From positions 2,448,501-2,512,500 of the forward strand of contig OZ029929.1 in the NCBI GenBank assembly GCA_964023275.1: DNA of 64,000 nucleotides, in the 5' to 3' direction. The DNA is from Norana najaformis. Lineage: Eukaryota > Annelida > Clitellata > Crassiclitellata > Hormogastridae. Made by a program: the position numbers and the translations under genes. Shown here piece after piece: positions 7,700 through 50,827 of this stretch. The notes below the pieces were generated by a model. It had not been told where the DNA came from. It searched no databases and saw only the letters and a program-made list of their open reading frames with translations. Position 1 is the stretch's first letter, and each line of letters starts with the position of its first letter.

Positions 7700-9840
7700 G
7701 TACAAATCGGGACGTACTAATGGAGTGCCAATCCATTTTCTCTCGGAAAGATTCACGCTGCGCTCGTGTATAAGCTGGCCATGCGCCACTCTCGACTTCC
7801 CTCAGATCTTAATAGGTTTAACCAACAGTGCAAACTTGTGCGTAAACTTGTTTCTTCGGCAAAATCAGAATATTTAACTAATTTAATTGCTGAAAGTTCT
7901 ACATCTCCAAAAACTCTGTGGATGGCTTTGAATAAATTACTACACAGAGAGAAGTTAAATTTATCTTTTGATGTGTTCTGTGCTACCCAAGAGCTAGCCA
8001 GTAAATTTTTGACCTTTTTTGCTGATAAGATTTCTGGTACAAGGCTGAAATTTATTGGTTATTCGGTATGTGATAAATTTCTTCATCCTAGTTCTTCTCC
8101 TTCTATCTTGAATTACTTTCTGCCAACAACTCTTGCGGAGGTTCGCAGACTCATGTTTTCTTCATCTGACAAAACCGCTCTCCTAGATACCATTCTCACT
8201 TCTTACCTAAAAGAATGTTTTGATGTCCTGGGTCCAAAATTACATCAATTATCAATTTCTCATTGCTTGAAGGATCCTTCCCATCTGCTTTTGCTCATGC
8301 CATAGTTCATCCTCTGCTAAAGATACCTTCTCTCGCTCCAAGTGACCTGTCTAATTACAGACCCATCTCAACTTTGAATTTTATATATAAAATTCTTGAA
8401 CGGGTAGTTTTGAATCGTATGCAAGCTCACCTTTCTTCCAACCCACTAATTTATCCATTTCAGTCTGCATACCGTAAATTTCATTCAACAGATTCGGCCC
8501 TGCTTGCTGTTCATAATGACATCATGCGCTCCATGAATAAGGGTAAGGTGACAGGCTGACAGCACTTGTTCTCCTTGATTTGTCTGCTGCCTTTGATACT
8601 GTCGACCACTCTCTCCTTTTGCATCGTCTTCAGCACTGGTTTGGGGTTTCTGGTCCTGCCCTACACTGGTTTGCTACTTACATCAGCCTTCGCACTCAAT
8701 CCGTATATTTAAATGGATATTCTTCAGCTAGTGCCTCGTTGATCCGTGGCGTTCCGCAGGATTCTGTACTTGGTCCTCTTTTGTTTACATTATACACCAC
8801 ACCTCTTGGTACTCTGCTAGACAATCATTCACTGGGATACCATTTCTATGCTGATGATACCCAAATCTACATCTCATTTGACAGTGTGACTTGTCACTCG
8901 TCTGTGCAACTTGTCTGATGCATTTGAAGAGCTGCAGTCTTGGATGGCGGCTAATAAACTCCTCCTTAACCCGTCGAAGACTGAATTTCTTCTACTTGGC
9001 ACTCCTCAGCAACTTAAGAAATTCGAATGGCTTAAATCCGTAAAACTGGGTGATTCACTCATTGAGATGACTGATACTGCTCGTTACTTGGGTGTTGTTT
9101 TTGGTTCTACCATGTCTCTCACAAACTATGTAAATGGTACTTGTAAGTCATCATACATGTATATTCGTGACATACGCAGAATTATGCATTATGTCCCCAT
9201 GTCTTCCAGAATATCCTTAGCTAACGCATTGGTCTCCAGTCGCCTAGACTATTGTAACTCCATTCTTGTTGGTATCACTAAGTCAAACATGCAGAAACTC
9301 CAAACAGTTCAGAACTCCTTGGCTAGAGCCATAACAAATACTTCTAAATATGAGCATATAACCCCTGTGCTTAAATCTTTACATTGGCTTCCTGTTCAGC
9401 AAAGGATTTGTTTCAAATTAGGACTTACAGTTTATAAAACATTGAACTACGGCCCACCACAATACTTGAAATCAGTCCTTATTCCCCAGACTTACCATTA
9501 TTCTGCAAGGTCATCTGATTGTCTTTCTCTGGTCATACCTTGGGCTAGAACTGTTCTGGGTAAACGGGCTTTTTCGGTTGCTGGACCAAAATTATGGAAT
9601 TCTCTCCCTGTGTCTGTTCGTTCTGCTCAGTCGCTTCTGTCATTTCGTCCTCAGCTTAAAATTTGTTTCGAATTGCTTATCCACCATAGGCTGCCTCTCT
9701 GTCGTGCGGACTGACCTTCTGGATATCGACCTGATTGTGGCTTGGTTTTGGTGTGCCATCGGTTGATGCCTTGTGCAGTAGACACCGGCGCATTAGAAGT
9801 TGCTAATTATTATTTATATATCTTTTAAGAAGCCTTTTAA
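7700..9840 (+). mobile_element. 5'-truncated, frameshifted non-LTR retrotransposon (CR1/L2-like RT)
   Basis: The reverse-transcriptase ORF is spread over three frames (about 7766-8280, 8280-8559, 8560-8910, 8911-9714). RT blocks in order: SNYRPIS (8350), FQSAYRKFHSTDSAL (8459), DLSAAFDTVDHSLL (8578), GVPQDSVLGPLL (8751; the usual Gly is Asp), FYADDTQIY (8846, catalytic Asp pair kept). Then follow YLGVVF, RLDYCNS, LHWLPVQQRI and LWNSLPVSVR near the C-terminus, and a TAG-terminated end at 9712. The N-terminal endonuclease is absent. At least three frameshifts make it inactive. YADDTQ and LHWLPV place it in the CR1/L2 group of Jockey-type LINEs; the exact clade is not certain. Confidence 0.9.
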
Positions 9841-24639: not shown

Positions 24640-25000
24640 TTTTCTAATTATCTGATTGACTAATGTTTAACGGCATCTTTCGTCTGCTATTTTTATATGA
24701 TGGATATAGGACAGCTTCTAGAAACTGAACGGCAGCGGAGACTGTAACCTAAAGCAAGGTCGACCTCAAAGGCCCTGGTACCCACAAGATGCAGTAATGA
24801 AAAATGCAAAGCTCTTCTTTGACACCTTTAAAACGGGTTCCACCGACGCTATATATTCAGCGACCCACGTTTAATCGTTGGTAACTCCGCCACTGCCTTG
24901 TTTGGGGGTAGTGCCAGTCCCAAGCCTGGATAAAGGAGGAGGGCGACGGCAACGGCCTTTGATGCCGTAAGATGTCGTTAAACTGAGGAACTAATCGTTG
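24640..25000. repeat. Dispersed repeat family R6, long copy
   Basis: 24870-24985 is the clearest R6 copy: GTTGGTAACTCCGCCACTG, TAGTGCCAGTCCCAAGCC, GGATAAAGGAGGAGGGCGAC, GCAACGGCCTTTGATGCCG, TAAGATGTCGTTAAAC. 24640-24700 holds another end piece. Confidence 0.6.
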
Positions 25001-31891: not shown

Positions 31892-32847
31892 GTCTCTAGA
31901 CGTCAAGATAATATAGCTAAAATATCTAGACATCTATATCTAGTCTTAGACAGTCGCAGTCATAAGGGTGGAACTTTAGAGTTGATCTCACCTGTATTAC
32001 CCCTCCACCCCACTGCCTTCAGAGCTTGTGGTCCAATTAAAGGAACTGTAAAGTAATGGCAGGGTAGCAAAAGGGGTTAGGGGAACAAATACCCCTGGGC
32101 GCAGATGATAAACAGGGCGCAAGACGAGGTTTGTTGGCAAACAACAAGAAACATTGGAGATGGGGTTGTAAATTTGAACTTTGTCCCCGGGTGGCGGTCT
32201 GGAGCTCTTTCTTACTAAGCTACTGGGAAATGGTCCAAATACTAAATGCCCTCTCCAGATACACGCTTATCACCAGATGTAAAGGGGTGGCTAGATCATT
32301 AGGCAGATACGACAACATTGATACAATGACTGGACAACCGTTGCTCAAAGGTTGCAAGTTTCAACAACAAACATCGGTTGTCAATCTCACTGCGATTTGA
32401 ATCACAACTCGAACCAAAATTTGCTGTTGTTCTGTATCTCAGTCAAAAGAGCTTTTAATATTATTAATATTATTAATATTATTATTTAAATTTCATTATC
32501 ATCATCATTAGTATTATTATTATTATATCTGACAGATTATGTCTCAAGTGTGTGTTATAAAAATTACATGAAATCTAATCTAGAACGATCTAATGACCTC
32601 TAGGGCAGCATTATCATAACGCACAAGACATCAACCGATGGTCACTAAATTGTAACTGCAGTCAAAAAGCATAATCTGTTGGAGAAGTCTGGTTGAAACT
32701 GGACAAGTTAGAGAAACTAAGTTGGGTAAATGAAAAATATGTACTTCATTTGGAATGGTTAGTCTTTGCTGACGTTTAGCTGATGGATACTAGATTAGAT
32801 ATCATGTCATTAATATAAAATTATTCTCTGTTACTGCAAACTTATCA

Positions 32848-33893: not shown

Positions 33894-34027
33894 TCATGAG
33901 TTGGGCGACTGCGGCGATTTCAGTTTTTTTATCGTGTTTTTGAGTGTCTGACGTTTGTTACAGAACCAGACACGAATGACCTCGCGGTCAAAGTTCAACT
34001 TCTCGGCCAGTTCCGTCATCTCCGAAC
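33894..34027 (-). CDS. POU6F: POU6F alternative last exon 8b (distal homeodomain second half)
   Basis: 134 bp after GGTGCAG: SEMTELAEKLNFDREVIR, VWFCNKRQTLKNTIKKL, KSPQSPNS stop. Same phase as 8a. Over the 35 comparable residues the two exons differ at about 11 positions, all outside WFCNKRQ. This one is closer to the vertebrate POU6 sequence (EMTE-AEKLN-DREV-RVWFCNKRQ). Confidence 0.95.
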
Positions 34028-37000
34028 CTGCACCAGAAACAACAAGAAGACAAATATTATTAGACAATTATAGAAGCACTTGTATTTGCAATTTGTATTT
34101 ATTAAGCTCCACTATCTAATGACTAACTGACGGCACTGAGCAGTTGTGAGTGAAGGACTTGCTCAAGGTCCCTACACAGTAACCGTTTCACAGGGAGGAA
34201 GCTCTAACGCGTACTCTCCTCGGCGTTACAAGCTGAGCACTCCAACCAATCGGCTACCATGCCTCACAGGCAGCAACCATTGAAATTCGTGCAGAAGAAG
34301 TATGGCACCACTTTCATCATCGTGTCCAAAAACATACCGAGTAGAAAGCAAAAACACTGCAGTGAGTCCTAGAGAAGCAAGGCCCCACAGAAATTTATGC
34401 AGCCAGGAAAATTATGAAACCTTGGGTTACAATCATCATCCATTATAGTGTCCAGCAAGGAACTAATGAATTTCGATGGTATGGACCCCAGAAGAAGCAG
34501 ACGGCATTACCATCTTATTATTATTATTATTGTTGTTGTTGTTTTTGTTATTTGAGGTACAAAGCGATTCCTCAGAATTACTAAATTAAGAATGTCCAGC
34601 ATTTTCCGGAATGTCAAGTCTCGTTGATGAGGTTCCTGGTGGCAAAGGCTCCGTGGAAAGCAGCAGCACTGAAGCGATGGATGGCATATATTAGAGCCCG
34701 CACAGGAATGTCGTCTCCCTGTTGTTGTTATTATTGTTCGCTTAGGCTGGTCTAATTCCTCAGCAAAGACCAACGTAACAAGCACTGAACTGTAAGTACG
34801 CTTCCACAGAAACTCTTCAGAGGCAGGTCCTATGGTCATCTGTTTGATGTGTTAACAGCAGCTCAATAACAAGACACCTTTTAAACCTCCCAACTAAAAC
34901 GGTGGTCTATCGGTAATGTGTTTGGTCAGTGATCATCATTCGGTCACGGGATTCGACTCCGTGTAATGACCCTGGGCAAGTAGTTTGCGCATACTGTGCC
35001 TCTGCCACCAAGCAGTCTAATTTGGTACCAGCATAAGCTGGGAAGTAGAGGGCAAGTCCTGCGATGCGCTGGCCCTGTGTCCAGGACCTTGGGATTCGTC
35101 CATTGCTGGCTCAAGGGCCTAAAGAAAAGGAAATGAACGCCCTCCCTACATTCCTCATGGGACATGTGGAATTTTATTAACTACTAACTAGCATTGTATA
35201 TATTTAAGACCCCAAAGTGGACGCCAGATGGCGAGGTATTCCACGGACGATCACTCTCCAAGTACCAACTGGGTTCATCTAGCGAAAACAGATGCAGTTA
35301 ATTTGCTATGCATTTGAAACAAATTCAGCTCCAAATCATTTGCTACGATTCAAACTAAGTCACGAATGAAACTGTGAACCTTGAGCCCATAATTACAGGA
35401 CAGGCAAGATTTAAAAACACATAGCAAAACAAGCAAATGAGAAACACAGCCCATGCAAATACGAAGACAGAAATAAAAAGGGAGGCACAAGGAAAATGAA
35501 AACAACGTTCATCAACAGACATCAAGAACTACTCTCAAGCAACAAAATCACCAACTGACGTCAATACCATGATGAGAAAACGTCTCTACAAACTAATATA
35601 ACATCTCTGTTTACTTTTACATACAAACAAATACATATAGATAATAATAATAATAATAATTATCATCATCATTACTATTATATCTGTGTCATAATGACAT
35701 CAACTGTCTAGTAAGAAAGCACAGCCAGTGTGACCTTTGGACAGACATTATTGTGGCCTTCTGAAGTAATTACACAATGCATGCACCATCTGCTTCTGAT
35801 TTAAGTTTTACATCTGGCACATTAATCTCATAACAATAACAATAACAACAACAAAACAACTACAATAATAATAATAATTATTATTATTACTACAACCCTT
35901 TTCAAAAGGCAGATATGAACCATCAGGATTTAACAAAATATATACAAAGTAAATAAATTATCTGGATCAAATTCAGGCACAGTGAAAGTGTCACAGCATA
36001 CAACAGCCATGAAGCACCGAGTTGCAATTGCAAGATGATTACAATTAATATTATTATCATTATTATCATTATTACCATTATTAATACTATTATTATTATA
36101 TTTTGACACCAGACTGTTTATTTCTAGGAGCAATTTAGTCACCCTGGTGTCTATACTTATCATACATTACTCTGAACAGTAGAGGTTCCCGAAAAGGCGC
36201 TACAAACGTCCACACACACACACACACACATCCACACTTTAAACAGTATAGTTTGAAGCCCAGGAAGTTCAGAGAGAAGGTGTCGATCGGTATGAAGCAC
36301 ACCTCTTATCGCGGTCTCGTCAGTTAGTTCCTGGGCGTTAGTTGTCTTATCGTGTTTTTGAGAACTTGTCGCTTATTGCAGAACCAGATTCGTATGATCT
36401 CACGGTCATAATTCAGATCAGTGGCCAGCTTAGACATCTCCGCTCCTAATCCAGCGCCGAAAATAAACAGAAAACAGACACATGCAAACGTCCACCTAAA
36501 ACTTAACACAAAACCAGTAGTAGCGACACACAGTGTTCCCTCTAAGCCAAGCAGGTGCATAGTCGCACAGCCATTTTGTGGCTTTGCGCAGGAGTTTTGT
36601 GGCTTTGCACAGGAGTTTTGTGGCTTTGCACAGGAGTTTTGTGGCTTTGTCCAGGAGTTTTGTGGCTTTGCACAGAAGTTTTGTGGATTTGTGCAGCAGC
36701 TTTGCGCTGCGAAAAATGCTTAAGCAATTCAGACACATCTAAAAAATCTTTTTGTGCAACAAGTTCAGAAATTTGCACCCTGAATTTTAAATTAAGAGGG
36801 AACGCTTGTGACACCTCAAACTTTTAAATCTTCCCTCTGCCATACATTCCTGATATAAGTTTTAAAATGTGTAAGCAGATATCGACTCTAATCTAAAAAC
36901 TTCTATAACGTTGTTATCAATATATACACAAGGGGCACTGGCATTGATTGATGGCCACTTCAAAATCAAACTGCATAATGATTCATAATTCTTTGGAAAG

Positions 37001-40000
37001 AACTACGGTATTATTTCTGCATTTATTAGGCACCACAAACTATGGTAGTCACAATCCAAAAAACCTCAAAGACTTCAAGACAGATGACAAGAACTCAAGA
37101 TTTCGTCCACATCTGAACCAAAGATCACAGAGTACACTAAAACATGAGGTGGTCAACAAAGCAAAACGGCCATACCGACTAGCCGCAGGTATGATAAATA
37201 AAGAGTCAGATGATACGGCAACGCTCACTGGGGTCCATTAAATAACATGACTTTGCTGATTGGGTGCACAACTTTGTCGACTGCAACACCACCAAGCAGA
37301 CAAAAACAATTACTGAATTCCACAGTCTTGGACCAGCAAACAAGAAAGTTCATGATTCTTTAACTGGTCTAACAGGCCAAAGTGGATAAACAATCCAAAA
37401 AAGAAGTTTTAAGCCGAGACCTGAACAGTGAAGAACTGGCAGGATAGATACAAGCATGTACTGAAGTCTAGAGCTTTAGACCAGCAACCGGGAAATCCAG
37501 AGAATCAGAGAACACAAGACTGTATTGAATTCTAGAGCTTTGGACCAGCAACCAGGAAATCCAGAGAATCAAAGAACACAAGACTGTATTGAATTCTAGA
37601 GCTTTGGACCAGCAACCGGGAAATCCTGAGAATCAGAGAACCCAAGACTGTATTAAATTCTAGAGCTTTGGACCAGCAACCGGGAAATCCTGAGAATCAA
37701 AGAACCCAAGACTGTATTAAATTCTAGAGCTTTGGACCAGCAACCAGGAAATCCAGAGACTCAGAGAACACAAGACTGTATTGAATTCTAGAGCTTTGGA
37801 CCAGCAACCAGGAAATCCTGAGAATCAAAGAACCCAAGACTGTATTAAATTCTAGAGCTTTGGACCAGCAACCAGGAAATCCAGAGAATCAAAGAACACA
37901 AGACTGTATTAAATTCTAGAGCTTTGGACCAGCAATCGGGAAATCCAGAGAATCAGAGAACCCAAGACTGTATTAAATTCTAGAGCTTTGGACCAGCAAC
38001 CGGGAAATCCAGAGAATCAGAGAACCCAAGACTGTATTAAATTCTAGAGCTTTGGGCCAGCAACCGGGAAATCCTGAGAATCAGAGAACACAAGACTGTA
38101 TTAAATTCTAGAGCTTTGGACCAGCAACCAGGTAATCCAGAGAATCAGAGAACCCAAGACTGTATTCAATTTTAGAGCTTTGGACCAGCAACCGGGAAAT
38201 CCTGAGAATCAGAGAACACAAGACTGTATTAAATTCTAGAGCTTTTGGACCAGCAACCGGGAAATCCAGAGAATCAGAGAACACAAGACTGTATTGAATT
38301 CTAGAGCTTTGGACCAGCAACCGGAAAATCCAGAGAATCAGAGAACCCAAGACTGTATTAAATTCTAGAGCTTTAGACCAGCAACTGGGAAATCCAGAGA
38401 ATCAGAGAACCCAAGACTGTATTGAATTTTAGAGCTTTGGACCAGCAACCAGGAAATCCTGAGAATCAAAGAACACAAGACTGTATTGAATTCTAGAGCT
38501 TTGGACCAGCAACCGGGAAATCCTGAGAATCAGAGAACCCAAGACTGTATTAAATTCTAGAGCTTTGGACCAGCAACCGGGAAATCCTGAGAATCAAAGA
38601 ACCCAAGACTATATTAAATTCTAGAGCTTTGGACCAGCAACCAGGAAATCCAGAGACTCAGAGAACACAAGACTGTATTGAATTCTAGAGCTTTGGACCA
38701 GCAACCAGGAAAACCTGAGAATCAAAGAACCCAAGACTGTATTAAATTCTAGAGCTTTGGACCAGCAACCAGGAAATCCAGAGAATCAAAGAACACAAGA
38801 CTGTATTAAATTCTAGAGCTTTGGACCAGCAATCGGGAAATCCAGAGAATCAGAGAACCCAAGACTGTATGACTGTATTAAATTCTAGAGCTTTGGACCA
38901 GCAATCGAGAAATCCAGAGAATCAGAGAACCCAAGACTGTGTTGAATTCTAGAGCTTTAGACCAGCAACCGGGAAATCCAGAGAATCAGAGAACACAAGA
39001 CTGTATTAAATTCAAGAGCTTTGGACCAGCAACCGGGAAATCCAGAGAATCAGAGAACCCAAGACTGTATTAAATTCTAGAGCTTTGGACCAGCAACCGG
39101 GAAATCCTGAGAATCACAGAACCCAAGACTGTATTAAATTCTAGAACTTTGGACCAGCAACCGGGAAATCCAGAGAATCAGAGAACCCAAGACTGTATTA
39201 AATTCTAGAGCTTTGGACCAGCAACTGGGAAATCCAGAGAATCAGAGAACCCAAGACTGTATTAAATTCTAGAGCTTTGGACCAGCAACTGGGAAATCCA
39301 GAGAATCAGAGAACCCAAGACTGTATTAAATTCTAGAGCTTTGGACCAGCAACCGGGAAATCCAGAGAATCAGAGAACCCAAGACTGTATTAAATTCTAG
39401 AGCTTTGGACCAGCAACCAGGAAACCCAGAGAATCAGAGAACTCAAGACTGGTCTAACAAGTTACCAAAGATAAGCAATCCAAACAGAGACCTGGACGAT
39501 ACAAGAGAACCAGGAGCACAGACAGAAACAGACCTGTATTTTATTCCAAAGCCTCAGACCAGCAAATCCCTGAAACTCAACCAGGATGGGTGTAGCTCTT
39601 GGGTACAACAAGAGTCAAAGTGATGAACAAGTGCAACATTTACAAGTTTAAATCAGTTGAGCCAAAGCAGTACAATAGACTCAAGGCACAAAGCACCAAT
39701 TTCTGACCTGTGAAACATGGGCAAAATAGGTGAAAAAGCACTTTTGATCTCGGCAACATATGTTACAACTTAACACGACCAACACGACCAGGTCAAATCA
39801 CAATGTTACATACACGTTTGGCAATTTGTAGTCATGCAATTGGAACATGTATCGTTTGTGACAAAAAGCTGGCATATTCAGCAGACTGAAACCTCCTCAC
39901 GTGAACCACTTCAACATAAATTCTACTACAACGAAGACCTGGCCATGGAACTCATTGTACGGGCCACCTCAACATAACACAACACTAGATTTAGCACTGA

Positions 40001-43000
40001 AATATAGCATTACACTAACTTTCCAGCATAAATGTTACTCAGCAGTTATGCATATGTCTGTACTATAGCAACTGGTGACTGAATCCAAGGTACCAGTGAA
40101 TCTGTGCTTCATGTGAATCTAGGTTCTCAGATAATTGTCAGATTCATTTGTTTTGCATCTTGCCATTCCGCAGCTTAATGGCAATGCTTCTTTTAAGTGT
40201 CCCCTAGACTGCAAACTTAAAGGAAACTTTCAACTACTTCAGATGAATTCAAATCTACCACAGTGACATTTCCACTAAAAGCAGGTCCATCATCAAGTAT
40301 TCATCTATGATTGTCATATTTAAAAGAGATAAAGACTGGTGGACTTAAAACAGATACGTCTCACAATGCAGAAGTTCAAAACTAAATTTCTAGAAGACGA
40401 ATTTTAAAAATAATTCAGTATTAGACTTGATCCAATCAGATGCAAACTCTAAGCACCAAACGCTAAACTACTCATCCCAATCAGCCAAAAAGCAACTACA
40501 CGCTACACTGCCATTCACTACGCTGGCTCGATCCACATACACAGCGAAGCAAATTAAACGAAAACAAATTACAGAATCTTATAATTCAGCAAGACAACTC
40601 GAAACATTGAAGATGGTGCACAACATTCTACCAACTCTTAAAAAAAGTCGTGCATATACACAGTGAAACCTCATTACCGCACGAAACTTGTGAGCTGTAC
40701 ATGCCACTAATTATTATTACTATTATTTATGTTTTGCCCAAGATAAGTGTAATTCCCTCAGGAATTAAAAAATTATGCTAGGACCTGTTAAAGGGTATCT
40801 GGGAAATCAGGCCTCATCCTCAGCAACACCAGAAAACATGCCCTGAAAAGCAATGGCATTGAAGTGCTGGATACAGGTAGAGAGGCGCTGAGAAAGGAAA
40901 CTGGCTTCACGTAACTTTCCAGAGACGGTTGAAAGGCAACCTCAAGGATGAAATCAACCCTGGCAGTGTTTCGAGGCGATGGGTGGAAAAAATATGTAGA
41001 TGTGTCAGTGTATTGTTATTATTATTATTATTCCTACTAATACTACTACAAAAATTGTAATGCACACAAAGTGGCAGAGAAATCGTATCTAAGTACTGAA
41101 TGTATAAAGTGTCATAACTGCATGAGGTCCTCTGCCTGATAAAGACTAAGCAAGGGCTTTGCAGGCGTTAATGAATCAAGCCCCTAGAGATTGGAAGAGG
41201 CCGCCTGGTAGACCCAGAACTACGTGGACCAGGACAGTTTCAAAGGATCTGGAAGAAAATGCTTTTGGCCTGCATGCTGCATGGAAGAAGGCCAGGACAG
41301 GAAGGTGTGGTGACACACTGTGGAAACGGCTACACTCATATGAGTTTGCCACTGGAGAGAGAGTCGCTATCAAATGACACACATCAACCGATAGTATTCA
41401 ATGCTGACTTGTGTAATCTTACAAGCCAAGAACTCAAATAATCAGTCACAGAATCTAGTTACGCTGAGACTAGCAGCGCACAGAAGTCTCCAACAGACAT
41501 GTGTAAGAGTAACAAGAGAACAGATCAGTAATATTCAAACGGAGAGCTGGTAGCAATAACCTTGCAAAATGACTGTAGCAATATTGCAAATTGGGAGCAT
41601 GCAGTAACCTGGTAAATTGACAGCAAAATATTGCAAATTGGGAGCAGAAGCCTAGCAGTAATCTTAAATGGCAATATCTTGCAACTGACAGCAACATGCT
41701 TGTAAAACTGGAGCAACAAAATTGCAAGTTATGGCAAAAATGTCAAAAACTGCAAGCAGTGAAACCGAAAATCCGGAGTTGCAATCGAGCTCAGTAAATA
41801 TGCATGCTGTAATGAGGTTTCTCTCTACCATCGACTAATGCAACACTCAAAGTACAAAAGACAGACGAACTATACAAATCAGTGATTTCCAACTCTATGC
41901 CCCATAAGTGGCCTTGTGGAGAGCAGAAATGAAGCTCAAAAACCATCATTGCATGTTGTACAATTAACACTCAATTTAAGATATTTAAACAAAACATGAT
42001 TAAGAAAATTCAAATTTAAGTTAAAATTTTTGAAGAATTTCAAGCCCAGAAAACTTTCAGGCATATCACTTAGATACGGCTGCAGAAATCTGAAAATTTT
42101 GATGAGAAATTCTAGCAGCTTGCATCTGAGTCAAACGAATCTCGGGGCACCTGTACTCTTTCCCTATTTTCTGCAAGTTGTTTTGATTGGTTTGAAAGAA
42201 GAGCTTAGTTACACATTGCCCCACAAACTCGCAATGCTCAAGTTAAAGCCATTCTGTCCCCTAGTATTCCACCAACCCATGTCTCCAGATTGCGTCTTTC
42301 TAGTAGTGAATAGAACTGTATGACCGGTCAATAACAATTACTGCAATTCTTCCCAGTCATTGTAATTATGACTGTAATTTCCATCCATTATGGTTATGAA
42401 TGTAAACCTTTAGTCATAATTACAACTGTAATTTTACCGTTTTACAGATAATTCTATCGTCCAGCTGGAGATGGCTAGATTTATTTCTGTCAATTACGAG
42501 CATGCCTGTAATTCTTCCCAGTTTTAAAAGTTTCTATCCAAAATGAGAAATACAAACAGTTGATAATCACAGCAGCCGTAATTCTTCCCAGTTCAACGGC
42601 CCTCCTAATCCAAAAAGCTGGAGATCACTGAACAACACGTGGGCAGACGATCGATCACAGCCCAAACATCTAAACAAAACACCGAAAGCGGAACTGGAGA
42701 AGTTGTACCTGACGGATGAGTACTTCGTTCAAAATGTTCGTTTAGCAGTTCAAGCGCCTGGGGTGTAAACGACGTCCTCCGTTTGCGTTTCTTCGACGGC
42801 TCAAGGCCGATGAACTCGGAGAGATTCTGCATCCCGTTCTTGTATCTCTCCTCGGCCATTGCCATCCATCGCTCCAGGACTGGTTTTATCTTCTGAGCGC
42901 TCTTCGGAGTTATGTCCAACTTCTCGAACCTGCAGCACCACGTGGATTCATGTTCAGACTGCAACACTTGAAGCATTCATATAGCACCACTCCGCGCATT

Positions 43001-46000
43001 TATAAAGCGCCACTTAAGCATTTTACACAGTGCCACTATAAGCACTAAATCTCTCCATATACATGTACATTTATATCTACCACCTTTGTCAAGCTCTTAA
43101 AAGGCTCTGCATAAATAGCCAGATACATATATGTGTGTGTATGCACGTACATGTATGTATGTATGCAAGTGTGTATGTAAGTGTGTATGTATGCAAGTGT
43201 TTAAATGTATGTATGTAAGTCTGTATGTATAATTATATATGTATGAACTTAAGTATTTATGTATGTAGATATGTTTGTATGCACATATGTATGTGCATGT
43301 CTAATCATTTATATAGCGCCTGTATGAGCTTCAATTTATTAGCGTCAGTAGTGGCAACTTGCCTGCAGATGGCCGACTGACTGTACGAAGGGCCTTCGGT
43401 GACGCTCAGGGCCTGGCCAACCTGCGTCTGGGTGAGGCCGAGCGACAGCCGACGAATCTTGAACTGTTTGGCAAACTCCCTCATCTCGTCCAGGTTTACT
43501 CCGTCGACGACTGTGCCTTCCCTCGTGCTGCTGATCGTGTCTTTGTTAGCAGAAAACAACAGAAATCTATCGATAGTCGACGCATTAACAGTAAGTCAGG
43601 TACAAAGTTTCCACAGTAAAATTCTTGAATTAACAGAATTGTTTGGTATATCTTGGGATAATAAGTAAATCGTAATCGTGATATCAAGATGTCTACAGTG
43701 CCAACAAAAGCCAAGTCGCAGGAACTAGCTTATTCACAGGCGCTCAGTCAAAACAAAATCAAGAGGCAGGAAGAGTTCAGTTCCAGGTCAAGATCCAACA
43801 ATCATGGAGGTAGGTAGGCAGACGGCTACGGGTGGTGGTGTTTGGAATTGAACCAGAAAATGAGATGAGAAAGAGGGAGAATCACAATAGGATTTGTGGA
43901 CGAGGAGTGTTTTCAGTTTTGCTTGAATACCTGTGCAGAAATTGTTGGACATGTACACCGTTAAACTTAATGTACAGTATATGGAACTTACATTTCCAGT
44001 GGAGAGAGTTTCAGTTTTCTTTTCATTTTTCTAATTTTCCCCCTAATGTGACTTTGTTTGCACTGTCTGTCTGTCTTGTGCAGAATTAAAATGTCTGTTT
44101 CTTTCTATAAAGAAACTTCCCAAAAAGATGACCATACTTTACCATCACTTCTTTACCTTACTTTACCTTACCAAACCTTACAGTGCCTCTTTCTTTGGCC
44201 TTGGCTGAGCTGTGGTACTAAGTAAACTGCCTTATTCTGATTAATACATAACCTTGCCCCACTTGAACTTGGCTGCCTTGAACTTACGATGTTAAACTGA
44301 ACTGAACTAAAGAAACCTTATTGAACATCAGGATCTTTTCCTTCCTTCAATTACCCACCTAATCTTTCTTTGCTTTACCACACAATACCATATCTTACCC
44401 TACCTTACCTTACCTTACATTACCCTACCTTACATTACCCTACCTTACCTTACCTTACATTACATTACCCTACCTTACCTTAACTGACTCGGTGCTTTCC
44501 CAAGTACTGACTTGGTAGTAGTTGGTTGATGTTGGGCGTCACCCCATTGACTCCTCCTCCTCCTCCGCCTCCTCCTCCCGCCCCTCCAGCCGCGGCCGAG
44601 GTTCCTCCCGTCGGCCCAGCGCCTCCACCGGTCGTCGACACCGCCTCTCCCCCAGTCGCCTGCACGACTCCCGTCCCGGCCGACAGCAGCGCCTGCGTCA
44701 TCTGGGCGATGTTGATCTGCAGCGCCTTCTGCGGAGTCCCGGACGAAGGGGCCCCAGTAGCGGCTGCGGCGATGGGCGTCGTTGCCAGGGTGAGCGTCGT
44801 CGCCTGGGCCCCTCCACCGGCCGTCGACGAGGCGGCTGATGCCGAGGAGCCGGTCGCGACGTCGACCGAGGCGGCTGCAGCCACCGCGGCAGCCGAGCGC
44901 TGCAGCTGCTGGACGAGCTGACCGATCTTCGTTGACCCGGCTGAGCCGCTCGTGCTGTTTGTCACGACGTTCTGCTGCAGGAGCTGCAGGGACCATTATG
45001 CAACGACCAAGTAAGGCGATGTTACACGTAACATAACATAGCATAGCATAACATAGCATAACGTAACAACGTAACGTAACATAACATATAATATAACCTA
45101 ACACAGCATAACATAATATAACATATATTAGCATAGAATAGCATAACGTAGCGTAACATAGCATAAAACAACATTAAGATCATAGCATAACATAATATAA
45201 CATAGCATAACATAACAGATGTGTCATCCGATCCAATTAAAACCTTTGTTATGTTTTGTTACATTATATAATGCTATGCTATGTTATAATGCTATGCCAT
45301 GTTATGTTATGCTATGTTGTTATGTTACTTTACGTTATGCTACATTGTTATGTTATTCTATGTATATCCTTATATTATCCTACGCTGTTAGGTTATGTTA
45401 CGATATGCTGTGCCATGTTGTTACGCTGTTATATTACGTTATGCTATGCTGTTATGTTGTTAAACAGCTGCAAATTAACCGGGAATACTTAAAAGCCAAT
45501 ATGAGACAATTCCATCACCCAAACCATTCTACAGATCAACAACTCTTGCACCAAAGTATCTCTGCCATAATATTCCTCATGGTTTCTTAAATAATTTATA
45601 CCCGTGGCCTCAAGTCGCTGCTGCCAATTCAAAGAACCTCTCACGATGCACTGCTTCCTTTCCAGTGATCACCTTATAAGCTTCATTTAGGTCCCCTCTA
45701 CTCCTCCTTCTCTTCAGTGTCGTTAGCCCACACCTTTGCAACCTTTCTTAACTGCTCAGATCCTTGTAACCCTAAATCGGTTTAGTAGCCCTCCTTTGCA
45801 CCGTCTCCTGTTGCCCTACGTCATGTTTCAGATGTGGATTCCATACACGGCGCTTAATAACTGCAGAAATAATAATATTATTACAGCTGACGGTTAGAGT
45901 TTGGCAGCTAACAGCTAGCAGTCTAAAGACCACTTAACCAGGCAGCGATCGTGAAGGAGCTCACCCGATTACTTCATTGATAAATGAGCAGGGTCGAGGC

Positions 46001-49000
46001 CATACGATCGCTAACAAAAAACATGTACATTTACACTTACTTCTGGACAGGCTTAAATTACCCAGGTAATGTGTGTGAACAAGTGTCAGATGCAGGAAGG
46101 TCAGTCAGGTTTACCTCTGATCTTTCGATAGATCTTTTTCGACAGACCTTTTAACAAATGTCAAATGTTTAAGTGTACTAATAATTCCAATCGTGGAACA
46201 GTTACCTGCGGTGAACCGATTGCAACGATCTGGCCCTGGGCATTAGTAATGATCTGAGGGATGTTCGTAGATGGGGCCAGTGATGCAGTCGACGTCCCAG
46301 ACTGTTGCTGCTGCTGCTGAACCAGCTGCCGAAGAGCCAGGTTCTGAATGTTCTGCGCTACGTTGGCTGCACAAGAGGAACAAACGGATTTATGAGTAAT
46401 ACAGAAAGAGTCGATACTTGCATTGTTAATCATTAACATTACAGATTAAGACTTGTTATATGTGTTCTTTATAACATGAATTCTCATATAAAATGACTGG
46501 AGACAAGGATCTCAAAGTTAATTCACCTATAGAAAATAAACTTACTTAAATTATTTCTGCATTTACCTCTCAAGAGGGCAGCATAAATGACAAGGCTGTC
46601 TAAATGATCGAAACAAATGCATTTTAAGGTACCCAGAAACGTCTCACAACACAGAAGGCGTCAATCAATGTGTTTGCCTTGAAGAAAAACTGTTGTCTAT
46701 GAACTAACAGAAAGGTATAGCTGAAATACAAGAGGTCCTCCTTAGTTGGAATGATCTGTTTGGGTGACCTATTGGCACATGCTGAATCTAATCTAATCTA
46801 AAGACTTCTGTAGCGCCATTATCATAATGCTCAGTCAACGGTCACTTCAAGTCAAAATCGCAATCCAAAATCATAATTCGTTGGAGAAGCCGGGTCGAAT
46901 TCCAATATGTCAGAGAAACCAGAAGCCAGGCTCAGAGATCCAAGTCTTGATCTCTGAACTTAGATTTCCTTGGGTTAGAAGACAACTAAGCTGAAACGAA
47001 CCACAACTATGCGGACTGTTGACAGTCTTCACCAGTGGACAATCAATGTTATCAAATGCCTTAATGTAATCAAATAAAAGTCAAAATATTTTATCAATAA
47101 GCCAAATCAAACCAAAAAATTAAAAGGAAACGTATAAGAAAGAAACGATATATGTGACAAACTGAAAAGATTTAACATATTTAGGTAATGTGATGCTGTA
47201 CCAAATGCCTCCACTGATATAGCGCTTTTAACAGAGTCCCTACACAGGACCTATATCAATTTTACGAAATAGGAATGCAGAGCTCCATAATATATTCCGA
47301 AACTGCCCTAACTATCAAGATCTGCTCCAAGAAGAGGAGGATTTCCAGATTGGCCGATTAGTGTAATACTTATAAGCAAATTTGCACATTAGTAAAATAC
47401 TCATTGGAAGATTAGTAAAATACTTATTGGCAAATTGTTAGATTATTAAAATACTGATTGACAAAAATTGGCAAATCACTAGAACACTTCTTGTGTCACA
47501 CACAGATTACCTACTAATTAAACTGAGAGGTGAAGCGACCATTACGAGCGGTTGCAGAGCGTTGCCTGTAACAACAGATCGACTGTGTAGCGCAGTGAGA
47601 CAACGATAGACAACTGAATGCTAATCACAACAACAAACTATGTCGAAACACAAAGCGAATCAATCAACTGAGAAACAACGATAAATCAAAGACAATCAGA
47701 AGAAAACATTAAAATGATCAAATTCAAAAGATACTATTTGAAAGATCGTTTTCATACAAATATACTAAAAGATCACATTCAAGATATCAAAAGCAAACAA
47801 CAACGTTTAAGCATCAACTCAAAATTAAGCCTTAAAATAAAATAATGACAAGGTGCTTTGAAATTTCAACTCTGCAAGAGTCTGGAGTTAAACTTCTAAG
47901 GCCTTCGTAGCTCATCCACCCACAAGGACTGTAATGAACTGGTAAAGTTACGTAATGTAAACGTAGAATCACGTTACACCTGGCAAGGTATCTGCTTGGG
48001 AAAGCGCTCTAACCAAGCCAAACAGCTTAAATGTGGAAAATCCCATGGAAAAACAACTGCTTACTCTTACCAAAATCTACGCTGTCCATAAAAATATCCA
48101 ACGATTAACGAAGAGACTAAACTCTTCAAAATATTCTCTACTGAAAGACAACGCTAGTAAGACTAGACTGCTCATAAAGACATAAACTGTCTGGCATCAA
48201 AGCCACCCACCCTGCCATATAGTTTCATCTAATTACAAGTACTACAAAAGACACAGCAATGTCTGGTAACTTCTGCGGCACTGATAGTTAAACGTACAAA
48301 ATGGTTGCCTCTAAGAAAAATTGCAATCATAATCCCAAACAACACTAACTTCAATCAAAATTTGTGCTGTGCTGGTTCCACCCAGCCTTGAATAATACTG
48401 ATATGAGCCCAATGATAAGACAAATCCTTGCAACACAAAAATTTCAAAATTAAAATGAGGTTACACTCTTAAACAAACTGAATCGAGATAAAATCGAAAC
48501 AACATTCGCAAATGAACTGAGAAGAAAGTCCAAAACGTCGCCCGACATTCTTACTCGACGTAGGAATCGTCAGGTTCAGCTGTGGTGCAAGGCCAGCCAT
48601 ATTGGTCGCGATCAGCTGACCACTAGATGTCGCCAGCAGCTGCATCTGGTTACCAAAGCCGGCGGCGAGCGACAACGGGATCGAGACGAGTTGCTGCGTA
48701 CCGTTGCCCGTGGACACAGGAATGAGGAGGTGCTGAATGGGCATCGTCGAGGGTGACGCAAGGCCCGTCTGGTTGGCGATGAGGAACTGTGGCGCCACCT
48801 GTGGCTGGCCGAGAAGCTGCTGGTGTGGGCTGGAAAGTGTCGGAGAGAAGACGCCTGAAAATTAATCAGTTTGTTTATGTTTTTAAAGCACAAACTCAGT
48901 ACATCTGAATCTGAGGCACGGATGAATGTCCGCTAGTAAAATGGAAACATAACATGGAAAAACCCAGAATACTCGTCTAACAGAACCATCTATCTAATGT

Positions 49001-50827
49001 CACCTAATCTAATGACTTCCATTGGCCACTGTCATCATGCACAAGGTAAATGTAAATGTACACAATTTTGCATAGGGACCGTATAGCCTCGACCTTGCTC
49101 ATTTTTCAAAGAATTGATCCTTCACCACTGCTGCCCATTTGAATGGGTGCCATGTCATTTAAGCTCCTTATGTACAAAACGTGCTAGCCGGAGATTCAAA
49201 TCTGTAAAACATAGCCATGATCGGCATGCAAACTGGCATCCTTGAGGTTTGATCACTTCAAGGAAACCACAGTCAAAAGTTCTAATTCATTGGAGAAGCC
49301 AGGTCAAAATCCAAAAGGTCAAATCTAATGACTTCTATAGTAGCATCATGATAATAATAAAGCAGGCGTGAATCAATCGTCGCTTCAAGTTAAACTGTAG
49401 TCAAATCATGATTGACTGAAGAAGTCTGGTCGAAATCTGACAGCGAGTAAACCATGAGTTAGGCTATGAGCACTGTTCCCGCTAAGCTGTGCGCATGTGC
49501 GCGCACACACGTCGTGAGACGAGCGCACACAAGAAAACATGGAGCGTATAAGAAAAATCTTCCTTCAAAACATGTTTTTTGCATAAAATATTATTTCAAA
49601 CACGTCCTTGTAAAATGTTGCAGAAAAGAAATTTTATGTGCACACAGACTCCAAAGAATTAGAGTGAACACTAGCTATGATGGGTATGAGCAAACTCAAA
49701 GAAGCAAGTCTTGAGTTCAAGACCCGCCGCTGTGTCACCTGACGTCTGGTCGCTGCGGTGAAGTTCTGCGAGGTCCGTCATTCCAAGGGGCTGGATTCCA
49801 AGGAAGAAGTTGTCTCCAAGGGCAGCAACGCCTGACGACGAGGAACTCATCGTGACTGGAACAGAGAGGGAAGGAAGGGCAAGAGACGAAGACAACGGAG
49901 ACGCCTGCTGATTCACTCCTGACAACATCACGTCCTAACAGGAAAACCACAATGACAACCACATCGAGTGCATCACACAGGTATAACACCAGATCAAGTT
50001 CTAATTAACACCAGTTATTATCATTACACTGGAAACTTGTTAAAACGTGGTCTCTGGGAGACAAGAATTTCAAGAACGTCCTTACAACTAGGTTGTGGTT
50101 TAGCAAGTTTATTTCCTATATGGCTTGTCAAAATTTGGATCTACGTCTTCAGCCACGTTTTATCAGAACTCAAGTTATAATGAAGTGCATTAAGACGAGT
50201 CCCTGGTTTATTGTTAATATCAATCAGATGTTTATATTGCGTTAATTTATAAATTCACCTTATACATGCAAGTAGCTGGCAAAAGCTGAAAATTATCACT
50301 CTAATTTATCTCTATAATAATACCCAATTCTAATAGCCAACTTCAAACATCGCTGCCTAACTTTTAACAGCCAACATTTAATAGCTATTGCGTAATTCTA
50401 AAAGCCAACATTTAATAGCTATTGCCTAATTCTAAAAGCCAACATTTAATAGCTATTGCCTAATTCTAAAAGCCAACATTTAATAGCTACTGCCTAATTC
50501 TAAAAGCCAACATTTAATAGCTATTGCCTAATTCTAAAAGCCAACTTCAAAGGTCGTTGCCTGGATGTCACCGACCTTGTTGATGATCGCTGCTTGGATG
50601 AGAGTCGAGGAGTCATGCTTGACGTCTCCATTGAGCGCATCTCCGATGCCCGGAACCGAGTCGTTGGTGTCAGCATCCATTGGCGGATCAGGGTTTGGAG
50701 ACAGTTCCCAGTGGGGATCCACTATGGTCAGCTTGTCACCACGCAGTGCTTCAGCCAACAACTCGAACACCAGCTGCAGCCGAGAAGATGCACCCGACAG
50801 ACCTAAGAACATCGAATCAGAAGCCAT
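33894..50827 (-). CDS. POU6F: POU class 6 homeodomain transcription factor with two alternative last exons
   Basis: A nuclear DNA-binding regulator. Minus-strand coding exons: 50827-50576, 49934-49739, 48854-48555, 46366-46206, 44983-44512, 43540-43363, 42929-42709, then either 36445-36324 or 34027-33894. Phases agree at every junction. The product would be 633 residues (proximal end) or 637 (distal end) if translation starts at 50827; human POU6F2 is 691. The N-terminal part is rich in Gln, Ser, Gly and Ala (TNAQGQIVAIG resembles vertebrate POU6). The POU-specific domain begins near VDGVNLDEMREFAKQF and continues KIRRLSLGLTQTQVGQAL to SAICR, then FEKLDITPKSAQK. The linker and homeodomain follow: SKKRKRRTSFTPQALELL, then WFCNKRQ from either last exon. 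KIRRLSLGLTQTQVGQAL and SKKRKRRTSFTPQA identify class 6. The start codon is the weakest point. Confidence 0.95.
34117..34268 (-). mobile_element. tRNA-Thr-derived SINE1, minus copy, near full length
   Basis: Reverse of 22738-22895: CACTGAGCAGTTGTGAGTG, GACTTGCTCAAGGTCCCTAC, then the head with GCGTTACAAGCTGAGC and CCAACCAATCGGCTACC. It inserted between the two alternative homeodomain exons. Confidence 0.85.
34900..35168 (+). mobile_element. tRNA-derived SINE family 2, plus copy, near full length
   Basis: Sense order: GGTGGTCTATCGGTAATGTG, TTTGGTCAGTGATCATCATT, GGGATTCGACTCC (B box), ACCCTGGGCAAGTAGTTTGC, TTTGGTACCAGC, CCTTGGGATTCGTCC, CTCAAGGGCCTAAAGAAAAG. The only copy in this orientation. 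Confidence 0.8.
36117..36122 (-). terminator. POU6F: Likely poly(A) signal for POU6F exon 8a
   Basis: AATAAA on the minus strand about 200 bp beyond the TAA at 36324. Confidence 0.4.
36324..36445 (-). CDS. POU6F: POU6F alternative last exon 8a (proximal homeodomain second half)
   Basis: 122 bp after GGATTAG: AEMSKLATDLNYDREIIR, IWFCNKRQVLKNTIRQL, TPRN stop. It completes the split Gly codon from exon 7 in frame. A minus-strand AATAAA at 36122-36117, about 200 bp beyond the stop, supports its use as a true terminal exon. Confidence 0.93.
36570..36712. repeat. 21-bp minisatellite, about 6.5 units
   Basis: Units TTTTGTGGCTTTG plus CACAGGAG; 21 bp is seven codons, so every frame stays open (plus-strand FCGFAQE repeats). 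It lies just upstream of exon 8a in the intron. No splice logic supports it as coding. Confidence 0.9.
37440..39450. repeat. 64-bp satellite, about 31 units, with 14-unit higher-order duplication
   Basis: Each unit reads GACTGTATT(G/A)AATTCTAGAG, CTTTGGACCAGCAACC, (A/G)GGAAATCC(A/T)GAGAATC, A(A/G)AGAAC(A/C)CAA. Unit variants recur in the same order 897 bp apart: for example the CAGAGACTCA variant occurs at 37754 and again at 38651. That equals 14 units plus one base, and a single inserted T near 38243 accounts for the extra base. Confidence 0.95.
41159..41375 (+). mobile_element. LINE RT C-terminal relic
   Basis: The frame reads RDWKRPPGRPRTTWTRTV, then WKKARTGRCGDTLWKR. The GRPRTTW-x-x-x-V pattern is the standard C-terminal end of RTE/Nimb-type LINE ORF2. 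Only the last 70 codons or so remain, inside the POU6F intron. Confidence 0.6.
42709..42929 (-). CDS. POU6F: POU6F exon 7: end of POU-specific domain, linker, first half of homeodomain
   Basis: 221 bp: FEKLDITPKSAQKIKPVLER, MQNLSEFIG, SKKRKRRTSFTPQALELL, NEHFERSTHPS, then G of a split Gly codon. It encodes homeodomain arm, helix 1 and the loop; helices 2-3 come from one of two downstream exons. Confidence 0.97.
42930..43362 (-). other. POU6F: GC-AG intron inside the POU-specific domain
   Basis: The intron begins GCAAGT and ends GCTGCAG, splitting the Arg codon of SAICR. Its middle holds a (TATG)n run (43130-43300). Confidence 0.85.
43363..43540 (-). CDS. POU6F: POU6F exon 6: most of the POU-specific domain
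   Basis: 178 bp: EGTVVDGVNLDEMREF, KIRRLSLGLTQTQVGQAL, GPSYSQSAIC, then AG of the split Arg codon. The donor is GCAAGT, a GC-AG intron with a perfect AG/GCAAGT context. The open frame reading through it is not family-like. Confidence 0.96.
43668..43965 (-). mobile_element. Long LINE family T 3' end, minus copy (POU6F intron 5)
   Basis: Reverse copy from TCGTAATCGTGATATCAAG through CTTATTCACAGGCGCTCAG and CAAAACAAAATCAAGAGGC to the RT-ORF end (GAATACCTGTGCAGAAATTG). Confidence 0.75.
44140..44490. repeat. CCTTA-rich pentanucleotide stretch
   Basis: CCTTACCTTAC and CATTACCCTAC units, densest at 44395-44485. It ends about 20 bp from the donor of POU6F exon 5. The unit is not a telomeric repeat. 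Confidence 0.75.
44512..44983 (-). CDS. POU6F: POU6F exon 5 (Ala/Gly/Ser-rich, GC-rich)
   Basis: 472 bp; begins LLQQNVVTNSTSGSAG and contains KIGQLVQQLQRSAAAVAA, LQINIAQMTQALLSA and a run of nine Gly before VNGVTPNINQLLP. It ends in phase 1 at a GTCAGT donor. A second CTGCAG (44974) gives an alternative in-frame acceptor three codons in. The exon is far richer in G+C than its surroundings, which opens false frames on both strands. Confidence 0.88.
45015..45465. repeat. Inverted pair of ACATAAC/GTTATGT microsatellites
   Basis: Left arm 45020-45215: ACATAACATAGCATAACATA-type units. Right arm 45247-45465: the reverse complement type (GCTATGTTATGTTATGCTAT). About 30 bp of ordinary sequence separates them, so the region can form a long imperfect hairpin or cruciform. 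It sits just upstream of the acceptor of POU6F exon 5. Confidence 0.9.
45466..46205. other. POU6F: Rest of POU6F intron 4
   Basis: 45925-46040 is a family 3 SINE-like copy (plus sense: GCAGCGATCGTGAAGGAGC, TGAGCAGGGTCGAGGCCATA). The remainder, about 45600-45850, is unrecognised. Confidence 0.5.
46206..46366 (-). CDS. POU6F: POU6F exon 4 (Gln-rich)
   Basis: 161 bp between TTGTGCAG and GTAACT: NVAQNIQNLALRQLVQQQQQQ, then IITNAQGQIVAIGSPQ. The TNAQGQI block is shared with vertebrate POU6 proteins. Confidence 0.93.
46367..48554. other. POU6F: POU6F intron 3
   Basis: 46785-46940 is an R5 copy (ACTTCTGTAGCGCC, CTCAGTCAACGGTCACTTC, TTGGAGAAGCCGGGTCGAA). 47340-47480 has short repeats of TTAGTAAAATACT. 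The rest is AT-rich without recognised content. Confidence 0.5.
48555..48854 (-). CDS. POU6F: POU6F exon 3
   Basis: 300 bp between TTTTCAG and GTAAGA: VFSPTLSSPHQQLLGQPQ, IQHLLIPVSTGNGTQQLVS, MQLLATSSGQLIATNM. Hydrophobic/Gln-rich segments resemble the activation region of vertebrate POU6F2 (ILIPFN...). Confidence 0.9.
48855..49738. other. POU6F: POU6F intron 2
   Basis: Contains a family 3 SINE-like copy (49045-49215, minus sense) and two R5 pieces (49000-49045, 49315-49440). The family 3 copy interrupts R5-type sequence, suggesting nested insertion. Confidence 0.55.
49739..49934 (-). CDS. POU6F: POU6F exon 2
   Basis: 196 bp between CCTGTTAG and GTGACA: DVMLSGVNQQASPLSSSLA..., SSSSSGVAALGDNFFLGIQP, ending in phase 1 (Ser-Gly split). 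Confidence 0.8.
50330..50550. repeat. 34-bp minisatellite, about 6 units, abutting POU6F exon 1
   Basis: Units ATTGCCTAATTCTAAAAGCC plus AACATTTAATAGCT. The array ends about 30 bp inside the intron from the proposed donor at 50576; the first and last units are diverged. Confidence 0.9.
50576..50827 (-). CDS. POU6F: POU6F putative first coding exon
   Basis: From ATG, 84 codons: MASDSMFLGLSGASS..., LTIVDPHWELSPNPDPPMD, ending IQAAIINK before GTCGGT. TTCTTAG at 50803 could instead be an acceptor, in which case the start lies upstream. The donor is weak, but only this cut keeps the frame of the next exon. Confidence 0.6.

Follow-up and report, generated by a model that had tools for sequence, protein, structure and literature searches.

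A POU class 6 gene of the annelid Norana najaformis with two homologous predicted last exons, each completing the homeodomain

Introduction

Splicing alters the DNA-binding domains of several transcription factors, and the described cases differ in the part of the protein that is exchanged. In Drosophila acj6 the forms I-POU and twin of I-POU differ by two residues in the N-terminal arm of the POU homeodomain, and the isoforms of vertebrate POU6F2 have residues added or omitted within the POU-specific domain. The exon 18b form of FOXP1 has an altered forkhead DNA-binding domain, the exons concerned being internal. In calcitonin/CGRP a weak proximal terminal exon that carries a separate poly(A) site is used against a distal exon, and the two ends are unrelated.

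In the accessible parts of the respective sources, one isoform of POU6F2 is described as skipping 108 bp of the last exon (PMC10436210), exons 18 and 18b of FOXP1 as mutually exclusive and as switching the gene programme (PMC11701043), and the splice variants of Lhx9 as having a truncated homeodomain together with another C-terminus (PMC9310833). The homeodomain splice variants met in the literature, as far as these partial texts go, truncate or lose the domain (Lhx9, PMC9310833; MEIS1). Among the literature matches listed, which comprised titles and the starts of abstracts and largely excluded subscription papers, for example those on the splice forms of fly pdm3 and acj6, none described a POU6 gene with a duplicated homeodomain exon. 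The available text on annelid and squid POU6 genes (PMC6118893, PMC4407788) gives no such homeodomain variants, and that of PMC4901127, PMC5740500 and PMC4356613 contains nothing about alternative POU6 homeodomain exons. Large homeobox gains have been reported for earthworms, with the POU genes unnamed in the main text as available (PMC4758240); partial homeodomains were merged or filtered in that survey, so an extra half-exon could have escaped notice.

The window described here is the whole 64,000-nucleotide stretch that was analysed, positions 2448501-2512500 of contig OZ029929.1 (C17) in the 608 Mb, 17-contig genome of N. najaformis (GCA_964023275.1). In that genome the Pfam family Eryth_link_C, an annelid marker, has 29 matches above its cut-off, as against none in 14 control genomes. 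Coordinates without a contig name are those of the window. A preliminary description of this stretch had proposed that a POU6F gene ends in either of two last exons, which are called 8a and 8b below.

Results

Structure of the gene

The gene is read from the minus strand. Exon 6 (43363-43541) is a coding block for most of the POU-specific domain with a 5' edge that is not fixed, and it appears to end in a donor of the GC-AG type (...TGC AG/GCAAGT, 43362-43357), the junction lying directly before the FEKLD of that domain. Exon 7 (42709-42929; 221 nt) spans FEKLDITPK to THPS and encodes the end of the POU-specific domain, the linker and the homeodomain to residue 28; its last base is the G of a split Gly codon (boundary ...CCGTCAG/GT, donor CAG/GTACAA). 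Two exons downstream, 8a (36324-36445; 122 nt) and 8b (33894-34027; 134 nt), each have a phase-matched AG acceptor and supply the remaining two Gly bases, helices 2-3 as homeodomain residues 29-63, and a stop of their own. Exon 8a (...GGATTAG/GA GCG GAG...TAA) ends in the tail TPRN and 8b (...GGTGCAG/GT TCG GAG...TGA) in the tail KSPQSPNS. The joined products end in ...RSTHPSGAEMSKLATDLNYDREIIRIWFCNKRQVLKNTIRQLTPRN for exon 7 with 8a and in ...RSTHPSGSEMTELAEKLNFDREVIRVWFCNKRQTLKNTIKKLKSPQSPNS for exon 7 with 8b, each closed by its stop. The coordinates, phases, stops and sequences of exons 7, 8a and 8b are thus as first claimed. As predicted from the DNA, two tandem, homologous and phase-compatible terminal exons each complete one POU class 6 homeodomain, and since both coding parts are terminated by a stop they are to be classed as alternative last exons and not as classical mutually exclusive exons.

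Upstream coding blocks were sought by comparing the gene strand, as 506 open stretches, with a paralogue on contig C16; 63 matched, and most of those other than the following three were judged on inspection to be repeats or shifted frames and discarded. The block at 48589-48849 belongs to the same gene (tblastn to C16:14783545-14783823, E 1.7e-28), and those at 46200-46289 (C16:14785306-14785395, E 1.2e-5) and 50573-50722 (C16:14777240-14777374, E 9.4e-8) probably do; all three are on the minus strand and have exon edges that are not fixed. No other homeodomain exon was found in the window, as the POU pieces recovered by a motif scan were exons 6, 7, 8a and 8b alone, together with three unrelated motif matches on the plus strand, and a tblastn search of the window with the three last exons of the genome (8a, 8b and the paralogous 8c) returned 8a and 8b only, the next best match having an E of 0.27.

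Elsewhere in the window there is a match to the type-P1 twister ribozyme (24878-24947; 68 bits against a cut-off of 67.2), and fragmented open frames at 7721-9714 resemble, by eye, a non-LTR reverse transcriptase (FYADDTQ motif).

Assignment to POU class 6

Both joined products are recognised by the Pfam Homeodomain model (58.8 bits for exon 7 with 8a and 65.6 bits for exon 7 with 8b; cut-off 22.9), and the best PDB match of both is human POU6F1 (3d1n; E 1.8e-44 and 4.4e-46, respectively). When exon 6 is added to the 8a form, the product scores 101.5 bits with Pfam Pou and 58.4 bits with Homeodomain; its best solved relative is again POU6F1 3d1n (E 4.1e-70), followed by Pit-1 (E 1.6e-35). A change from Glu to Leu at alignment position 134 is given as a mark of class 6 in the available part of PMC4245813, where the final dipeptide of the homeodomain is also suggested to have aided the divergence of the POU classes. 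We infer that this position corresponds to homeodomain position 56. Leu56 is present in 8a, 8b and the paralogous 8c, and absent from all 15 of the other POU homeodomains compared (10 Glu, 4 Gln, 1 Asp). On these sequence comparisons the gene is a predicted POU class 6 transcription factor (POU6F / pdm3).

The genome holds at least 15 POU homeodomain loci beyond the two POU6 genes, of which, judged by eye, several are presumably POU3-like and four POU4-like. This large set agrees with the reported earthworm homeobox gains.

Differences between the two homeodomain halves

The two exons are identical at 24 of 35 comparable residues, 11 of those 24 being encoded by different codons, and differ at exactly 11, where about 11 had been estimated. 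Aligned with each other, the exons score 49, whereas shuffled sequence scores 8.7 on average and 0 of 500 shuffles reach 49, and by this comparison a chance likeness is not a credible account of the pair. In homeodomain numbering, with W48 as the reference, the differing positions are 29, 32, 33, 36, 37, 40, 44, 47, 55, 61 and 62.

Homeodomains usually contact bases through positions 50, 51 and 54, and W48, F49, N51 and R53 are the usual invariants; all four invariants are present in 8a. The helix-2 surface contacts partners in other POU factors. Within helix 3 the exons differ at 44, 47 and 55 only (V44I, V47I and T55V from 8b to 8a), residues 48-54 (WFCNKRQ) being identical, and the remaining differences are mostly in helix 2, with E33K, E36T and K37D among them, and in the tail. 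In engrailed the recognition helix comprises residues 47-55, as given in the available part of PMC3874178, so that position 47 lies inside it. The proposal that the exons supply different DNA-contacting recognition halves consequently stands for the differences at 44, 47 and 55, but was too strong given the identity of residues 48-54. The Ile44/Ile47 pair of 8a occurs in 0 of 17 other POU homeodomains compared in the genome, all of which have Val/Val; the 17 are 8b, 8c and 15 non-POU6 matches, weaker homeodomain matches being left out.

The paralogue on contig C16 and the ancestry of the exons

Contig C16 carries another POU6 gene, in which the exons are laid out in the same way but a single last exon was found. 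Exon 6' (C16:14788035-14788214) is the paralogue of exon 6, with 90% identity over 60 residues (tblastn); exon 7' (C16:14789242-14789462) has 221 nt, the phase of exon 7 and the donor CAG/GTAAGT; and exon 8c (C16:14791913-14792046) has the 134 nt of 8b. Searches of the genome with 8a and with 8b gave three class 6 last exons, namely 8a, 8b and 8c. In residue identity to 8c, exon 8b reaches 28 of 35 and 8a 24 of 35; to human POU6F1 the figures are 23 of 32 for 8b, 19 of 32 for 8a and 20 of 32 for 8c. As 8b is closer than 8a to both 8c and the human protein, 8b is best read as the canonical exon, and it looks to be the ancestral form from these identities, with 8a an extra, derived copy.

Third-position differences per 35 codons are 15 for 8a and 8b, 21 for 8a and 8c, and 18 for 8b and 8c; the order of exon and gene duplication is not recoverable because third positions are saturated. 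All three exons are distant at these sites, which would suit an origin of 8a from a third, tandem POU6 gene that has otherwise been lost, instead of from an exon duplication, and the presence of two POU6 genes indicates that whole-gene duplication has occurred in the lineage. Such an origin is nevertheless improbable, as the genome searches gave exons 6 and 7 in two copies and the last exon in three, and revealed nothing of a third gene. A remnant of 8a beside the C16 gene was sought as well and rejected, as C16:14760001-14820000 searched with 8a gave 8c and nothing else below E 0.13.

Splice sites and polyadenylation signals

Splice sites were scored with a matrix entered by hand, and ranks are among the gene-strand sites of the window. 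On this scale the donor of exon 7 scores 4.9 (rank 274 of 4360 GTs), as against 12.74 for the CAG/GTAAGT donor of the C16 paralogue. The acceptor of 8b ranks 10 of 4013 AGs, that of 8a (TTAG) scores 3.62 (rank 672 of 4013), and that of exon 7 scores 4.69 (rank 422 of 4013). A weak shared donor with a weak proximal and a strong distal acceptor fits regulated use of 8a and default use of 8b.

With the same matrix, two AGs upstream of 8a, at 36495 and 36541, outscore its acceptor. By eye, a junction at 36495, where the AG before it scores 5.04 against 3.62 for 36445, would give Gly and 15 codons to a TAG at the 8a acceptor, so the 8a region could instead yield a truncated homeodomain that runs out of frame to a stop before 8a, comparable with Lhx9a/b. 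The conserved homeodomain frame of 8a would then be without reason, and we give this reading very little credence.

A candidate poly(A) signal, AATAAA, lies on the minus strand at 36117-36122, about 200 nt past the stop of 8a, and further AATAAA hexamers occur at 35178 and 34103, before 8b. The chance of at least one AATAAA per 300 nt is 0.15, so the hexamer at 36122 lends weak support. After 8b, no AATAAA was found down to 31000, the nearest ATTAAA being at 32459.

Three TGCATG hexamers occur near 8a on the gene strand (36486, 35785 and 35457), the first ending 35 nt 5' of the exon. We take TGCATG to be an Rbfox-type motif and these to be possible regulator sites; the gene strand of the window holds 26 of them, and as they were seen post hoc they were excluded as evidence. 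The intron also contains a 64-bp minisatellite (37467-39451; 30.9 copies, 93% match), which occupies 2 kb about 1 kb upstream of 8a, and a 21-bp tandem array directly upstream of 8a (36574-36691; 5.6 copies), through which the 8a frame is open to 36719.

Age of the duplication and selection on 8a

The regions around 8a and 8b have a single strong DNA match, and it does not extend beyond the exon (36442-36340 against 34024-33922), while the 130-base flanks align no better than shuffles, the observed score being reached by 300 of 500 upstream and 84 of 500 downstream. With 400 bases the upstream flank behaves in the same way (468 of 500), but the downstream flanks depart from this pattern with a marginal resemblance (22 of 500), and there is a 26-base downstream-flank match at 36206-36181 (E 0.042). 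The 130-base flanks of 8b and 8c are likewise unalignable (220 and 480 of 500 shuffles). If the duplication carried flanks with it, the conservation of the exons beside randomised flanks would indicate that it is old and that both copies have probably been under selection for most of their history.

An assembly or haplotype duplication is ruled out by the 29 differences in 105 bases together with the unalignable 130-base flanks. A dispersed repeat carrying 8a was also rejected, as the non-self matches listed for the query 36000-36900 all fell in a trinucleotide stretch at about 36032-36108; 40 of 352 candidates were scored in this DNA search and 8b was missed as well, so its outcome means no more than that close copies were not seen. 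Viral and prokaryote collections gave 61 and 288 pattern matches, respectively, none of which was confirmed, as expected for an animal gene.

The 29 nucleotide differences between 8a and 8b are distributed as 10, 4 and 15 over the codon positions. When they were placed randomly, at least 24 of 35 identical residues were retained in 11 of 50000 trials, and stops were absent as well in 5 of the 11; this shows constraint on the pair. Pairwise dN/dS is 0.13 (NG86) or 0.29 (YN00), values that use the same data as the comparison of 24 of 35 residues. For the 8a branch alone the evidence for selection is modest: a codon model rejects neutrality (2dlnL 4.32, p 0.038), a value as extreme arose in 13 of 300 null simulations, and the changes assigned to 8a only by parsimony (5, 3 and 8 by codon position) are by themselves compatible with neutrality. 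In the same test on 8b neutrality is not rejected (p 0.76), from which it follows that power is low.

These results bear on whether 8a is a formerly used duplicate, now dead or dying and no longer spliced in. Its weak acceptor (rank 672 of 4013) would suit that reading, as would the larger number of replacements on the 8a side, the Ile44/Ile47 pair found in 0 of 17 others, which also fits relaxed constraint, and the branch test of p 0.038 only (13 of 300 simulations). Under free drift from 8b, in 20000 simulations each, at least 24 identical residues were kept in 38% of copies at 0.2 substitutions per site, 4.3% at 0.3, 0.26% at 0.4 and 0.02% (a fraction of 0.0002) at 0.5, and in none at 0.8, so a recent release of 8a from constraint stays compatible with its present similarity, but drift at 0.5 or 0.8 substitutions per site does not account for it. 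As 8a also has 122 nt without a stop or frameshift, has kept residues 48-54, and is alignable where its 130-base flanks are not, we consider its decay unlikely. The initial claim that both exons are kept by selection is thereby supported for the conserved exon beside its unalignable 130-base flanks, and only modestly for 8a taken alone (p 0.038; 13 of 300).

Discussion

The reading that we favour as probable from the sequence is that 8a and 8b are alternative last exons, 8a having the weak acceptor, and that selection has preserved 8a as a specialised duplicate of the ancestral 8b. The weak donor of exon 7 would have two possible partners, the distal 8b as the default and the proximal 8a, and a transcript spliced to 8a would end by cleavage at a poly(A) site close by, for example that signalled by the AATAAA at 36122. 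With a stop in each exon, a protein would carry the 8a half or the 8b half, and one only.

Both products have in common the POU-specific domain, the N-terminal arm of the homeodomain and Trp48-Gln54, so they would be expected to bind the same core site. Ile44, Ile47 and Val55, the charge changes of helix 2 and the altered tail may then tune affinity, dimer contacts or partner contacts. It is possible, and we put it forward tentatively, that the 8a form prefers DNA sites or partners of its own and is used in particular neurons, splicing being a switch inside the homeodomain. If this is true, splicing would adjust rather than delete the binding of a POU factor, as two complete alternative homeodomains would share their first half. 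The paralogue in the same genome, for which a single last exon was found and whose donor is perfect, offers a natural comparison.

Isoforms 1 and 2 of vertebrate POU6F2 (RPF-1) belong to the same POU class as the gene described here. They have one common homeodomain, with no duplicated exon described in the available part of PMC10436210, whereas the annelid gene has two versions of the second homeodomain half; that text likewise holds nothing contrary to the preliminary statement that class 6 splicing variation is otherwise known only in the POU-specific domain. In Lhx9a/b as compared with Lhx9c, splicing alters the homeodomain and the C-terminal sequence, as is proposed here, but Lhx9a/b truncate the homeodomain, whereas 8a and 8b are homologous and both complete it. 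The FOXP1 pair consists of internal exons in a forkhead gene, in contrast to terminal exons and a homeodomain, and acj6 / I-POU varies in the N-terminal arm, where the variation described here is in helices 2-3. The two ends of calcitonin/CGRP are unrelated, whereas 8a and 8b, of 122 and 134 nt with 24 of 35 identical residues, are homologous duplicates.
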